Of a stretch of 64,000 bases of DNA, positions 58,397 to 64,000 are shown piece after piece. Positions within the stretch are counted from its first letter, which is position 1. Every line of letters begins with the position of its first letter. Location of the stretch: positions 1 to 64,000 of the forward strand of contig NZ_JMKT01000016.1 in NCBI RefSeq assembly GCF_000686525.1. The letters run 5' to 3'. Under the pieces are notes generated by a model that was not told where the DNA came from, ran no database searches, and saw only the letters and a list, made by a program, of their open reading frames with translations. Source of the stretch: Desulfonatronovibrio hydrogenovorans DSM 9292 (GTDB lineage Bacteria; Desulfobacterota; Desulfovibrionia; Desulfovibrionales; Desulfonatronovibrionaceae). The position numbers were made by a program, and so were the translations under genes.

Positions 58397-58636
58397 GCAA
58401 GCACTTCTCCATGAAGATATGCCATTGATGGAATTTCCAACATTTTTCCCTTAAGGACCATCCGAAATTCTAATGAACCATCAGGACCGACTTAACAGCC
58501 CCATTCACTTTTCTAAATCCAAGAATTACCTAAGGGCTTAACAAACTGCAAGTTGTTAATTTTTTTGCATTGCCAAGGACTTGTTTCTAAGAGATAGTTA
58601 AGAGTGATCAACGCCAGAAAACCAAGGAGATTTTTA

Positions 58637-60289
58637 ATGTCCAAGCCAACCCAGACCCAGGCCTGGCCCAAGCTGCAAAAGCATTTCCAGCAGATTAAAG
58701 AACAACACATGCAAGACATGTTTGCCAAAGACAGTAAAAGGTTTTCAAATTACTCTCTCCAGGCAGGACAGGTATTTCTGGATTATTCAAAAAACAGGAT
58801 CAACCAGGAAACAATGAAACTTTTGTTTTCCCTGGCCAGGGATATGGATCTGGAGCCACGAATCCAGGCCATGTTCAATGGAGAAAAGATAAATTTCACA
58901 GAACACCGCAGTGTCCTGCATATAGCACTTCGCAACAGGTCAAACCGGGCCATAATGGTGGACGGCCAGGACGTGATGCCGGAAGTGAACAGGGTCCTGG
59001 ATAAGATGAGCAGTTTTTCATCCAGGGTCAGACAGGGCCGGTGGCAAGGCTGGACAAAAAAGCCCATCAAAGACGTGGTCAATATCGGCATCGGCGGCTC
59101 GGATCTGGGCCCCAAGATGGTCACAAAAGCCCTGTCAGCTTATGCCAAACCAGGCTTAAACATCCACTTTGTATCCAATGTGGACCCGGCCCACCTGGAA
59201 AATACTCTGGCAACACTGGACCAGCAAACCACTCTGTTCATCATAGCTTCCAAAACCTTCACAACTCAGGAGACCATGTTCAACGCCACCAGGGCCAGGG
59301 AATGGTTTTTAAAAGGGGCAATGGATGAAATGCATATCCCGGCCCATTTTGTAGCAGTATCCACCAACACCTCCAGGGTCCGGGAGTTTGGAATCGATCC
59401 TGAAAACATGTTCTCCTTCTGGGACTGGGTTGGGGGAAGATTTTCCCTGTGGTCGGCCATCGGCCTGCCCATAGCCCTGTCCATTGGGATGGATAGCTTT
59501 ATAGAACTGCTCTCAGGAGCCCATGAAATGGACGAACATTTCAGAAACTCCCCCTTGGAACAAAACATGCCGGCTGTCATGGGGATGCTTGGAATCTGGT
59601 ACTCAGATTTCTTCAAGGCTCAGACCCATGCTCTTTTGCCTTACAGCCAGTATCTGGAAGAGTTCCCCGCCTATATGCAGCAGGCTGAAATGGAAAGTAA
59701 CGGAAAGTCCGTGACCCTTGATGGCCAGCAGACCGACTATGAAACCGCGCCGGTGATCTGGGGCGAACCCGGCACAAATGGCCAGCACGCTTTTTTCCAG
59801 CTCCTGCACCAGGGGACAAGGCTTGTGCCCTGCGACTTCATAATCTTTGCCCGTCAGCCCAACCATCATCCCAAACAGCATAGACTTTTGCTGGCCAATT
59901 ACCTGGCCCAGACAGAAGCCATGATGACCGGCAGGACAAAGGCCCAGGTTCTAAAAGAGATGCAGGCTGGCAAAAGACCGGGAAAAGAAATAAGCCATCT
60001 TCTTCCCCACAGAGTGTTCCCCGGAAACAGGCCTTCCAACTCCATCATGCTGCCTGAACTCACTCCCAAAAGCCTCGGAGCACTCATTGCTCTGTATGAG
60101 CACAAGATTTTTGTCCAGGGAGCAGTCTGGAACATAAACTCTTTTGACCAGTGGGGTGTGGAGCTGGGCAAGGAACTGGCCAGAGTCATTGAGCCTGAAT
60201 TGGAGGATGATCTGGAGGTTTCAAGTCATGATCCTTCCACCAACGGCCTGATTAATGTCTGGAAAGCAATGTCCAGAAACAAAGTTTAA
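58637..60289 (+). CDS. pgi: Glucose-6-phosphate isomerase
   Basis: The 550-residue enzyme interconverts glucose-6-phosphate and fructose-6-phosphate. Seen are [26 protein letters not shown], the catalytic region [18 protein letters not shown] and [16 protein letters not shown] 58637 has AAGGAGA 6 nt upstream, so the frame upstream to 58604 is not used. It interrupts the arsenic genes on the opposite strand and could supply sugar phosphates, although it is probably housekeeping. Confidence 0.95.
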
Positions 60290-60406: not shown

Positions 60407-61108
60407 TTACCTGTAAAAACTTGAAATCCTGTCTGCAGATACTTTGCAGTGATACATGATTCTAATCAGCCAGTTTCTCAATGTACAGTAAAGAGGCCCC
60501 TCTCTTTCCCAGCGTCTGTCAGAAGTCTTGACCCTTTCCGGAAGAATTTCGATTTTTCCTCCTGACTTTTTGATCCTGGTCATGAACTCCAGATCCTCCA
60601 TAATGGGAATGTCTTTAAAACCTCCAATCTTATAAAAATAATCCCTGCGAACAAATATCCCCTGATCTCCGTACGGCACTCTGGTCCACCTGGAACGCAG
60701 ATTAGCAACCTGCTCAACCAATTTGAGAAATGGCCTTTCAGAGGTTATACCCAGGGAAAAGGATCCGCCAACAATATTTTCATCTTTTAGTGCGCTTGGA
60801 ATGAGCTGGGCGGAATTGGCCGGAAGTCTGGTGTCTGCATGGACAAATAAAAGGACCTGGGCCGTGGCCTGGCCTGCTCCGGCATTCATCTGCCTGGCTC
60901 TGCCCTTGTCAGAAGCAAGCGTAGATATGCCTGGAACATCCAGAGCTTTCCGGGTCTCCTCGTCCGGACTGCCGTCAACAACAATAATCTCATGTCTGTC
61001 CACAGGAAAAATATCCACCAGATGGCGGACAAAGGCATTGATTCCGGCCTGTTCCCTGAAAACCGGGACAATAACGGATATTTCCATGACTTGTCTGGAC
61101 TGGCTCAC
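60407..61108 (-). CDS. TIGR04283-type glycosyltransferase, arsenosugar-associated
   Basis: The GT2-fold protein has ISVIVPVFREQAGI, the metal-binding FVHADTRLP (DxD-like), YGDQGIFVRRDYFYKIGGF and MEDLEFMTRI. From memory the family is linked to arsenosugar loci together with TIGR04282. The GTG start at 61108 (GGAG 8 nt upstream) overlaps the Fe-S gene stop; ATG 61087 is an alternative. It is the last gene of the operon from the right edge. Confidence 0.86.
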   Translation of the reverse strand: MSQSRQVMEISVIVPVFREQAGINAFVRHLVDIFPVDRHEIIVVDGSPDEETRKALDVPGISTLASDKGRARQMNAGAGQATAQVLLFVHADTRLPANSAQLIPSALKDENIVGGSFSLGITSERPFLKLVEQVANLRSRWTRVPYGDQGIFVRRDYFYKIGGFKDIPIMEDLEFMTRIKKSGGKIEILPERVKTSDRRWEREGPLYCTLRNWLIRIMYHCKVSADRISSFYR

Positions 61109-62208
61109 TGGCAATTCTCCGGCTTTGACACTTCCCTGATGAACCGGAATTTAAGCCTCAGCCTGTTCCAATAGGTCCAGGGCGATTTTACCTGGCTTGT
61201 ATTACCAGCCAGGGCCTTTTCCGGATGAATCAGAAAGTCAATCAAATGAACGGCCTTGATCCCGGCAAGTCTGAGATAATCGGTGCAACCTGCGCAATAA
61301 GTGAGCACCAGGTCATCACCGGCCTGGTCCTTGCGTACCCTGCCCCATGCCAGAGCCATATCCCTGTTCAAAAACCCCACTGCCCCGCCCTCCCCGCAGC
61401 ACAAGGTGCAGGCAAAATTATCTGGAAATTCTTCACAAATCAGGCCTGATTCAGCAAGATAGTCACGTATTCCGGCCTGAACTCCTGGAAAAAACCGTAA
61501 GGCACAGGAATCATGCAGACGGAGTTTGTGTTTAGGGGCTTTTTCATGAGCCAGCCTCATTCCTGGCAGAACCTCCCAGGCCATTCTGATCGACAATTTG
61601 GGAGCACAGACCTGGAACAGGGAATAACAGCTGGGGCAGGCCGTGATTATCTGCCTGACTCCCTGAACATGAAGCCTTTCCAGCATCCTTTGCAAACGTT
61701 TTTCAACCAGGACTGTATTGCCCAGATCATGGGAAGGTCTGCAGCAGCAATCCAGAACCACTCCTAATCCGGGCATATACCTCTTAAGCTCAATAAACAA
61801 TGCCCAGGTGGCATCCGGTCTGGTTCCGGCCAGGGCACAGCCGGGAAAAAACACACTTTCGCTGGTCCGGGAAGGCTTATACCAGGATAAAAGGGCTGAA
61901 CTATTCAGCCGCTCATAGAGCAAAAGACGCCAGTATTTTCTGAGTATTGCCGGACTGCGGGTCAGGGACTCCCTGCGCATGGCCAGGAACATGCCGGCAG
62001 GATCAACCCCCACCGGGCATACACCTGTGCACAGACTGCACAGGCTGCACTCAAAAGGATCTGTCCGGGACTCATGGTTCAGAACAGAACGGGCAATATC
62101 CCCTGGAAGGCCCCACTTCTTCAAAAAAGAACAGTTTTCAGAGCAAAGCCCACAGAGCTCGCATCTTCCAAGGACTTGGCTGGCCAGTTCCGGCAAAGCC
62201 ACTATCAA
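61105..62208 (-). CDS. Heterodisulfide-reductase-like (Fe-S) protein
   Basis: The 367-residue protein has two ferredoxin-type [4Fe-4S] motifs (CELCGLCSENC and CSLCSLCTGVCPVG) and two CCG domains (CCCRPSHDLGN...ACPSCYSLF and CTLCCGEGGAVG...TYCAGCTDYL), like GlpC/HdrD. It probably passes electrons to a thiol or disulfide substrate. Start is TTG 62208 or GTG 62202. It overlaps the VTT gene by 4 bp and so belongs to the selenoprotein operon. Confidence 0.85.
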   Translation of the reverse strand: MIVALPELASQVLGRCELCGLCSENCSFLKKWGLPGDIARSVLNHESRTDPFECSLCSLCTGVCPVGVDPAGMFLAMRRESLTRSPAILRKYWRLLLYERLNSSALLSWYKPSRTSESVFFPGCALAGTRPDATWALFIELKRYMPGLGVVLDCCCRPSHDLGNTVLVEKRLQRMLERLHVQGVRQIITACPSCYSLFQVCAPKLSIRMAWEVLPGMRLAHEKAPKHKLRLHDSCALRFFPGVQAGIRDYLAESGLICEEFPDNFACTLCCGEGGAVGFLNRDMALAWGRVRKDQAGDDLVLTYCAGCTDYLRLAGIKAVHLIDFLIHPEKALAGNTSQVKSPWTYWNRLRLKFRFIREVSKPENCQ

Positions 62209-62879
62209 GACTCCCCTTTAATCCTCTTGACCAGCTTTGGCAGGTAAAGGGAAAAGCCGAGCAAGGCCAAAGACAAAAACACCTGCCAGGAAAGCAGTCC
62301 CCACCAGTCACCTGAAAGCCAGACATTTCTGATGGTCCCTATGAAAAAGGTGAAGATAAAGGTTCCCACAATAATGCCCAGGCCTGTCCCGGCAAAATAA
62401 TCCCAGAACCTGACTCTGGTCAGGCCCATGCCGAAATTCATTGGTGTAAACGGAAAATAGACCAGACGAAGATACAAGACTGTGGCAAACCCGTTACGTT
62501 CAATGGCCTGATCATACCTGGCCAGCCTGCCCTTGATCAGGGAAGCAGCAAAGTCGCGCCCAAGGTATCTGGCAATGAAGAATGCTCCAGAGGCTCCCAG
62601 CATGGCTCCGAACCAGACATAGACAAACCCGAAGTATGGTCCAAATATGGCTGCACCAATTCCGGTAAGCACAGTACCGGGAATGAACAGGCACACCCCG
62701 GCAGCGTAAAGAATGATAAAAGATACCGGCGCCCAGAACCCGGCTTCCTCCACCAGTTCGGTCAGCGCCCTGGGAGAAAAGAATCCGCTGACAGGACTGA
62801 ACCTGACCAGATAAACGGCCAGCAGGATGAACATAAGAAATAAAAAAGCCTTGATCAGGTAATTATGCTGTCCAGTCAC
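62205..62879 (-). CDS. TVP38/TMEM64 (VTT domain) membrane protein
   Basis: GTG 62879 with GGGAG 6 nt upstream gives 224 residues, the normal size. The VTT core is visible: PGTVLTGIGAAIFGPYFGFVYVWFGAMLGASGAFFIARYLGRDF and LRLVYFPFTPMNFGMGLTRVR (cited as landmarks in two parts). The family includes phospholipid scramblase-like and mercury/selenium-locus proteins. The longer frame upstream to 63005 would overlap the preceding selenoprotein gene and is rejected. Confidence 0.85.
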   Translation of the reverse strand: MTGQHNYLIKAFLFLMFILLAVYLVRFSPVSGFFSPRALTELVEEAGFWAPVSFIILYAAGVCLFIPGTVLTGIGAAIFGPYFGFVYVWFGAMLGASGAFFIARYLGRDFAASLIKGRLARYDQAIERNGFATVLYLRLVYFPFTPMNFGMGLTRVRFWDYFAGTGLGIIVGTFIFTFFIGTIRNVWLSGDWWGLLSWQVFLSLALLGFSLYLPKLVKRIKGES

Positions 62880-62889
62880 GACCTTCTCC

Positions 62890-63207
62890 CTACCTGCCCA
62901 GCAGACGGCCCAGAATACCCTTTGGAGCAGGATCAGGCGGTTCCAGGCCAAGGTGTTTGCAGATAACCTTTTCCAGTTCGTATTGATCGATTCCGCTTCC
63001 TTCAACCACTATATCATCTCCAACCATGACCGCTGGAGCAACTGGAAGGTCCAGTTCAAAGTATTCGTCTGTCTGATAGTCAGCAATGGGTTTGGAAGTA
63101 GTTTCAATCTGGATATCGTATTTCTCACCCAGCCTGGGCATCATTTTCAGAAAGCCCTTTCACGGCTTTCCACTTGGCTCATTAAGAAAAAAATGGACCT
63201 TCAACAT
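62890..63207 (-). CDS. Thioredoxin-fold selenoprotein with UGA-encoded Sec at residue 16 (longer paralogue)
   Basis: Reading from ATG 63207 (GGGAG 9 nt upstream) through an in-frame TGA at 63162-63160 gives 105 residues. The N-terminus is FFLNEPSGKPU, followed by KGFLKMMPRLG. Position 16 is where thioredoxins place an active-site Cys. The cis-proline loop LPVAPAVMVGDD supports the fold. The motif is Gly-x-x-Sec: no resolving Cys precedes it; one Cys occurs late (VICKHLG). A SECIS-like hairpin lies 21 nt after the TGA. A Pro-rich amphipathic tail (EPPDPAPKGILGRLLGR) is unique to this copy. If TGA is a stop, only the fragment from 63144 would be called. It ends 11 bp before the VTT gene. Confidence 0.85.
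63121..63153 (-). promoter_or_regulatory. Candidate bacterial SECIS element of the longer selenoprotein
   Basis: On the minus strand CCCA and TGGG flank a GGC loop (63138-63128), enclosed by a TTTCT/AGAAA outer helix. The apical GG lies 25 nt after the TGA. Placement is almost the same as in the paralogue. Confidence 0.6.
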
Positions 63208-63283
63208 TTCATTTTTCTCCCTGTATTAAAAGATTCAGCTGAATATTTTTCCGGTCAGCTTCGGCCCAGGTACTGATAATTTA

Positions 63284-63550
63284 TCAATTCCCAAGCCTTG
63301 CCCTGATGGCTTTCTCCAGATCATGCTGCTGGATGTCTTGACCCTGCACCAGCACTTCCTGGCCGATCATTATGGCTGGAGCCACAGGAAGTTTGCTTTC
63401 TTGATATTTAAGGTTTCTATATTCACTAAACGGTTTGGAAACCACATTGATTTGTACAGGATATTTTTTGTCCAGACCGGACATCATTTCTTTGAAATGG
63501 CGTCAGGTTTTGCCCATGGGCTCATTTAAAAAGAATGTTACACTGAGCAT
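63284..63550 (-). CDS. Thioredoxin-fold selenoprotein with UGA-encoded Sec at residue 16 (shorter paralogue)
   Basis: From ATG 63550 (AGGGG 6 nt upstream), reading through TGA at 63505-63503, the product is 88 residues. Its FFLNEPMGKTU, LPVAPAIMIG and LEKAIRARLG align without gaps over most of the length with the longer paralogue. The upstream 15 codons are conserved in phase, which would not be expected if translation stopped there. The protein has no Cys at all, so selenocysteine would be its only redox or soft-metal ligand. It begins 2 bp after the thioredoxin stop. Substrate is unknown; an arsenic, mercury or selenium role is possible. Confidence 0.85.
63469..63483 (-). promoter_or_regulatory. 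Candidate bacterial SECIS element of the shorter selenoprotein
   Basis: On the minus strand TGTCC and GGACA pair around a GGTCT loop. The E. coli fdhF SECIS apical loop is GGUC, so the match is notable. The loop starts 24 nt after the TGA, within the usual bacterial range. Confidence 0.7.
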
Positions 63551-63552
63551 GA

Positions 63553-64000
63553 TCAACCCCTAGTTGTTTGCAATGCATTCTGCATCAGTCCCAAAAAACG
63601 TTCCGGCGGCATATAGTCAATAACCCGCAAATCTTTCATTTCCATTCCGTCCGGGGACAGGAAGATGACCGTGGGCACACCGGGCACTCTGTATTTTTCC
63701 ACCAGGTATTCGTGAAGAGGCACTCCTCCTCTGGTAAGGTCCACCTTGATGCTGACGAACTCCCTGGAAAGCTCCACCACGTCAGGATCGTGGAAAGTCT
63801 CATTCTCCAGACGTCTGCAGGGCGCGCACCAGTCTGCGTAAAAATCCAGGATCACCGGCCTGTTCTCCATCATGGCCTGTTCCAGGAGTTCCTCAGAATA
63901 ATTCTTCCAGTCCACTCCCGGACCCTTGAAAATCCATGATCCAACCAGAAACAGGGCTGTAAACAATCCCACCAGGATTACAGCCGACTTCATCCAGTAA
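63553..64000 (-). CDS. Membrane-anchored thioredoxin, possibly the C-terminal part of a DsbD-like protein
   Basis: From ATG 63993 it has 146 residues: a helix (AVILVGLFTALFLVGSW) then a thioredoxin domain with WCAPC and cis-Pro in GVPTVIFLSPDG. The sequence ILDFYADWCAPCRRLENETFHDPDVVEL is typical of the DsbD gamma domain. The frame stays open to the window edge, so it may be the end of a larger DsbD/CcdA protein. It probably supplies reducing equivalents for the selenoproteins that follow 2 bp later. Confidence 0.8.
   Translation of the reverse strand, partial: YWMKSAVILVGLFTALFLVGSWIFKGPGVDWKNYSEELLEQAMMENRPVILDFYADWCAPCRRLENETFHDPDVVELSREFVSIKVDLTRGGVPLHEYLVEKYRVPGVPTVIFLSPDGMEMKDLRVIDYMPPERFLGLMQNALQTTRG

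Follow-up and report, generated by a model that had tools for sequence, protein, structure and literature searches.

The DNA analysed here, referred to as the window, comprises the first 64,000 nucleotides of contig NZ_JMKT01000016.1 of Desulfonatronovibrio hydrogenovorans DSM 9292. Close to its end, the minus strand carries the gene order tsoB-tsoC-tsoC-VTT-FeS-TIGR04283, which, as far as it can be read, probably belongs to a tso operon (Table 1). The two tsoC genes together span 62890-63550, exactly where the preliminary description of this DNA had placed a tandem pair of selenoprotein genes.

Table 1. Features of the tsoC locus, numbered from the first nucleotide of the window
Feature	Positions	Strand	Remarks
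tsoB, 3' part (C-terminal DsbD-type thioredoxin domain, WCAPC)	63553..64000	-	runs off the window edge
tsoC copy 1 (upstream, divergent GKTU type)	63284..63550	-	88 aa, Sec at residue 16, no Cys
TGA read as Sec, copy 1	63503..63505	-	codon kept as TGA in 134/136 homologues
Bacterial SECIS-type hairpin, copy 1	63469..63483	-	UGUCC-GGUCU-GGACA; fold and family covariation
tsoC copy 2 (downstream, canonical GKPU type)	62890..63207	-	105 aa, Sec at residue 16; AlphaFold2 thioredoxin fold
TGA read as Sec, copy 2	63160..63162	-	
Bacterial SECIS-type hairpin, copy 2	63126..63140	-	UGCCCAGGCUGGGUG; AGG codon and pairing conserved
VTT-domain (TVP38/DedA-like) membrane protein	62205..62879	-	Pfam PF09335, 82.9 bits; start GTG 62879 inferred
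Fe-S dicluster / cysteine-rich domain protein	61105..62208	-	overlaps VTT gene by 4 nt
TIGR04283 glycosyltransferase	60407..61114	-	241 bits, cut-off 182; overlaps Fe-S gene; likely operon end

Both tsoC genes have an in-frame TGA at codon 16, and both frames continue beyond it to a proper stop codon. With the TGA read as selenocysteine (Sec, U), copy 1 begins with MLSVTFFLNEPMGKTU (motif NEPMGKTU) and copy 2 with MLKVHFFLNEPSGKPU (motif NEPSGKPU). The active-site motif of both copies is GxxU, and the CxxC of classical thioredoxins and glutaredoxins is absent. Besides Sec, copy 2 contains one Cys near its C-terminus. The two proteins are 51% identical over 87 amino acids (E 9e-32), and upstream of the TGA their genes differ at 4, 3 and 11 first, second and third codon positions, which is the pattern of coding sequence. 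The start of copy 1 lies 2 nt past the stop of tsoB and that of copy 2 lies 76 nt past copy 1; each is preceded by a purine-rich sequence of its own that resembles a ribosome site (63557-63560, GGGG, and 63217-63222, AGGGAG, respectively). The paired TGAs with matching sequence around them, the separate ribosome sites, the Gly at the position of the resolving Cys and the Cys-free copy, all of which the preliminary description had listed, were thus found again.

The gene upstream of copy 1 matches positions 428-571 of the TsoB model (C14:63574-64002, where C14 is the contig of the window; 202.6 bits). We assign it to the 3' end of tsoB because the match reaches the edge of the readable DNA. Since tsoB runs off the window, the ATG at 63993 is probably internal to the gene. 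Taken by itself, the stretch 63553-64000 on the minus strand mimics a complete thioredoxin of 146 amino acids, which is probably the C-terminal domain of tsoB alone. A search for TsoA gave no match in the readable genome, in which contig C14 was read to position 64000. In relatives, TsoB joins a DsbD-like channel to a rhodanese-like and a thioredoxin domain, and its gene usually has two or three Sec codons.

Among the Desulfobacterota loci the order tsoR-tsoA-tsoB-tsoC recurs, often followed by a gene for a VTT membrane protein. In the 76 loci with more than 4 kb readable upstream, tsoB is present in 64, tsoR in 56 and tsoA in 54, while a VTT gene follows tsoC in 35 of the 101 loci with room downstream. 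The tsoR gene of relatives, which precedes the operon, encodes an ArsR/SmtB-type regulator (146 bits). Because the genes for the VTT, Fe-S and TIGR04283 proteins follow downstream with overlapping or adjoining ends, the operon probably spans tsoR to TIGR04283; in another genome of the same genus (G060; L095, L096) a gene for an Fe-S dicluster protein is likewise found beside tsoC-VTT. At four loci (L083, L085, L137 and L144) tsoC occurs with no recognisable tsoR, tsoA or tsoB nearby. Since tsoB is missing in roughly one in six of the loci with more than 4 kb readable upstream, TsoC may in addition work independently of TsoB and outside the operon.

Both proteins are recognised by the NCBIfam model NF045708, “NEPxGxxU motif selenoprotein TsoC”, with 142.9 bits for copy 2 and 124.2 bits for copy 1, both well over the curated cut-off (45 bits). 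They share with this family the NEPxGxxU motif with its in-frame TGA, the position of Sec, the length and the neighbouring tsoB. The NEPxGxxU motif, the GxxU site and the tso operon are described in a 2026 review (PMC13188914), which lists TsoA, TsoB, TsoC, TsoX and TsoY and credits Haft & Tolstoy 2025. The name stands for “three-selenoprotein operon” (tsoR-tsoA-tsoB-tsoC) and was given in 2025 (Haft & Tolstoy 2025, cited in PMC13188914). The pair in the window therefore consists of known TsoC family members and is not a new type of selenoprotein, and the suggestion that such a monoselenol pair is poorly described has to be given up. In contrast to a single-copy tsoC, the window has a tandem pair with a divergent, Cys-free GKTU copy, although tandem copies are frequent in the family.

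It is very probable that both genes encode TsoC with Sec at residue 16. As far as sequence can show, the reading of UGA at codon 16 as Sec is supported by the conservation of the TGA, a hairpin selected as RNA, the sel genes of the organism and the thioredoxin fold. The preliminary description had pointed to the sel genes, to position 16 of homologues and to the RNA fold after each TGA as places where the reading could be checked, and it was borne out in each. The genome encodes tRNA-Sec (82 bits), SelA (617.6 bits), SelB (403.5 bits) and SelD (376.9 bits), the last with an in-frame TGA of its own. A family search covering 297 genomes from the order and 395 from the phylum gave matches in 14 and 31 genomes, respectively, and each match above the cut-off contains one TGA. 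An additional scan, over contigs of bacterial and archaeal genomes, yielded 151 relatives, of which 80 were kept. In 136 distinct homologues the Sec codon is TGA in 134, TAA in one and frameshifted in one; Cys was found in none. The homologue with TAA (L177, 6334-6549) reflects either a genuine nonsense mutation or a fault of the assembly, and the frameshifted one (L103, 9903-11784) is a further tsoC copy adjoining a partial extra tsoB fragment. A remote relative scoring 29 bits, below the family cut-off, has Cys at the Sec position (L087, 2495-2716, minus strand, NNPMGVRC), as expected for Cys/Sec pairing.

A short hairpin follows each TGA. Counting the T of TGA (63505 in copy 1, 63162 in copy 2) as 0, it occupies nucleotides 22-36 in both copies, which agrees with the near-identical distances and the GGTCT loop of one copy reported in the preliminary description. 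The loop begins about 25 nt past the UGA, and the hairpin conforms to the bacterial SECIS type, defined as lying 16-37 nt after the UGA with G in the start of the loop. The SECIS element of E. coli fdhF is likewise a short hairpin that follows the UGA, and its loop is GGUCU. Copy 1 resembles it in both respects; however, the loop is farther from the UGA here than in fdhF, and that of the tsoC family is AGGYU. A hairpin at nucleotides 22-36 is common to all 56 aligned copies (consensus UGCCC-AGGYU-GGGC). All 51 homologues that have Arg in the loop encode it with AGG, where 6.6 would be expected from local codon use (z 19), and the Pro codon is CCC in 50 of 51 (21.1 expected on the same basis). 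Register-fixed pair counting gave a unique pairing register, with 93.1% of cells paired versus 29-48% after sliding the partner strand. Three stem pairs show compensatory change on both sides, and the stem of copy 1 is itself a compensated case, in which GCCC/GGGC became GUCC/GGAC while the protein changed from PRLG to SGLD. Judged from this codon bias and from the compensatory, register-specific stem pairing, the hairpin is selected as RNA and not as protein alone.

If the TGAs were true stops, either two parallel nonsense mutations would have occurred or translation would begin beyond the TGA, with the ATGs in codons 22-23 as initiation sites. Both copies do have ATGATG at these codons, the first ATG is kept in 43 of 57 homologues, and the TAA in one homologue illustrates that stops can arise at the Sec codon. 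Nevertheless, we consider true stops highly improbable (the preliminary description had called parallel nonsense mutations unlikely): the conserved codon is TGA and not TAA or TAG, the stretch before it evolves as coding sequence (5320, 3160 and 11838 differences at first, second and third codon positions among homologues), the hairpin and the AGG codon are conserved, and a late start would cost the predicted fold its first beta strand. That general recoding or suppression puts Cys or Trp at the TGA is even more remote: conservation concerns the readthrough frame only and the residue itself cannot be read from DNA, but TGA terminates 18 of 47 large open reading frames in the window, copy 1 itself ends in TGA-TAA, the Sec machinery is complete and a SECIS-type element follows each TGA. 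A scan of the window for more genes with a single TGA gave one unconvincing candidate. Elsewhere in the genome, three rhodanese-like or DsbD-channel-like stretches with an in-frame TGA (C9:437195-437626, C9:436355-436654 and C10:227096-227743) are possible further selenoproteins.

A thioredoxin fold is confidently predicted for TsoC. The AlphaFold2 model, calculated from an alignment of 39 members, has a pLDDT of 94.8 and the order beta-alpha-beta-(alpha)-beta-beta-alpha, corresponding to the beta-alpha-beta-beta-beta-alpha of the thioredoxin fold, and its best matches in the PDB are thioredoxins (probability 1.00, TM about 0.53-0.67). When PDB sequences were searched with the family profile, no match was significant (best E 0.075), and neither TsoC protein of the window matched Pfam, while 26 of the 39 homologues weakly match Thioredoxin_3 and two match Glutaredoxin. 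A weak alignment of the profile with a PDI domain places Gly13 and Sec16 on the two Cys of CGHC. In the CxxC-equivalent motif, Sec thus takes the second position and Gly the first, so that the earlier characterisation as a thioredoxin-fold protein with a GxxU active site and no second redox Cys in the motif was right. TsoC resembles selenoprotein W-like proteins (CxxU) in its thioredoxin-type fold and in having Sec at the second motif position, and monothiol glutaredoxins in its thioredoxin-type fold with a single reactive chalcogen; unlike in both, the first motif position is Gly.

Two tsoC genes are present in 24 of the 89 operons with room on both sides. The pairs are asymmetric: 22 of 26 combine a copy that has Pro directly before Sec with a copy that has Thr there, and in the majority of pairs one member is clearly nearer to the single-copy consensus than its partner. 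In single-copy tsoC, Pro precedes Sec in 72 of 80 cases. The divergent copy was assigned by hand in the three pairs with a one-residue insertion (L138, L151, L170). In a tree on 88 columns, a single clade of all upstream copies was rejected (p-AU 7e-6), and a single clade of the divergent copies, in either position, was not (p-AU 0.225). That a pair usually combines one canonical copy (GKPU) and one divergent copy (GKTU) is possibly an unreported detail. From the Pro/Thr pairs, the predominance of Pro in single copies and the unrejected divergent clade, we speculate, with considerable doubt, that GKPU and GKTU are two functional subfamilies which arose by an old duplication, were repeatedly kept together and act as a paired monoselenol relay. 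In such a relay the two proteins might, for instance, be joined by an intermolecular diselenide or act one after the other as acceptors that differ in reactivity.

As the preferred role we tentatively propose that TsoC is a carrier whose single selenol holds a selenenylsulfide, a persulfide or a metalloid adduct. A toxic metalloid or a reactive chalcogen species would act on the ArsR-type TsoR and turn the operon on. TsoC, which is probably cytosolic since no signal peptide was seen, would then use its selenol in the manner of a monothiol glutaredoxin and form a selenenylsulfide, a selenopersulfide or a soft-metalloid adduct. The adduct would be exchanged with TsoB, a membrane protein in which a rhodanese-like selenodomain is joined to a DsbD-type electron channel and to a thioredoxin domain, and the second TsoC copy might serve as a partner with different reactivity.

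The main rival, which concerns the function only, is that TsoC is an electron carrier, namely a cytosolic reductant that takes over from thioredoxin in supplying electrons to the DsbD-type channel of TsoB. The fold, the DsbD-like protein encoded by the adjacent gene and a thioredoxin reductase-like gene near some operons (L098, L067, L158, L185) fit this role. However, with one selenol and no partner Cys in the motif, TsoC is unable to store two electrons in an intramolecular disulfide as thioredoxin does, and some copies are entirely free of Cys; we regard electron transfer as a possible but rather unlikely role.

Somewhat more doubtful still, again with regard to function only, is a chaperone that binds and delivers a soft metalloid or chalcogen such as arsenite, selenide, tellurite or Hg with little redox activity. 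The ArsR/SmtB-type TsoR of relatives and the genes for ACR3 efflux and ArsR within 7 kb of the pair point in this direction, whereas in other genomes ACR3 and ArsR are seldom near tsoC, and here a plus-strand gene (58604-60289) separates them from the operon. Beyond this gene follow TIGR04282, the ArsR-type regulator and ACR3. The preliminary description had put the pair beside arsenic genes; arsenic-type genes are indeed nearby, but the defining neighbour is tsoB. Two glycosyltransferases of the arsenosugar type are encoded here (TIGR04282, 57710-58396, and TIGR04283), and such enzymes also occur near tsoC-VTT in other family members (L097, L099). They do not show an arsenosugar pathway, because the radical SAM protein ArsS (TIGR04167) was not found in the readable genome, with C14 read to 64000 (best match 42 bits versus a cut-off of 300).

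In conclusion, Tso is a selenium-rich redox system that is conserved in sulfate reducers and related bacteria. This locus contributes a clear case of tandem tsoC genes and strong evidence at the RNA level for the reading of UGA as Sec. The recurrent pairing of a canonical with a divergent copy provides a testable clue to how TsoC works.
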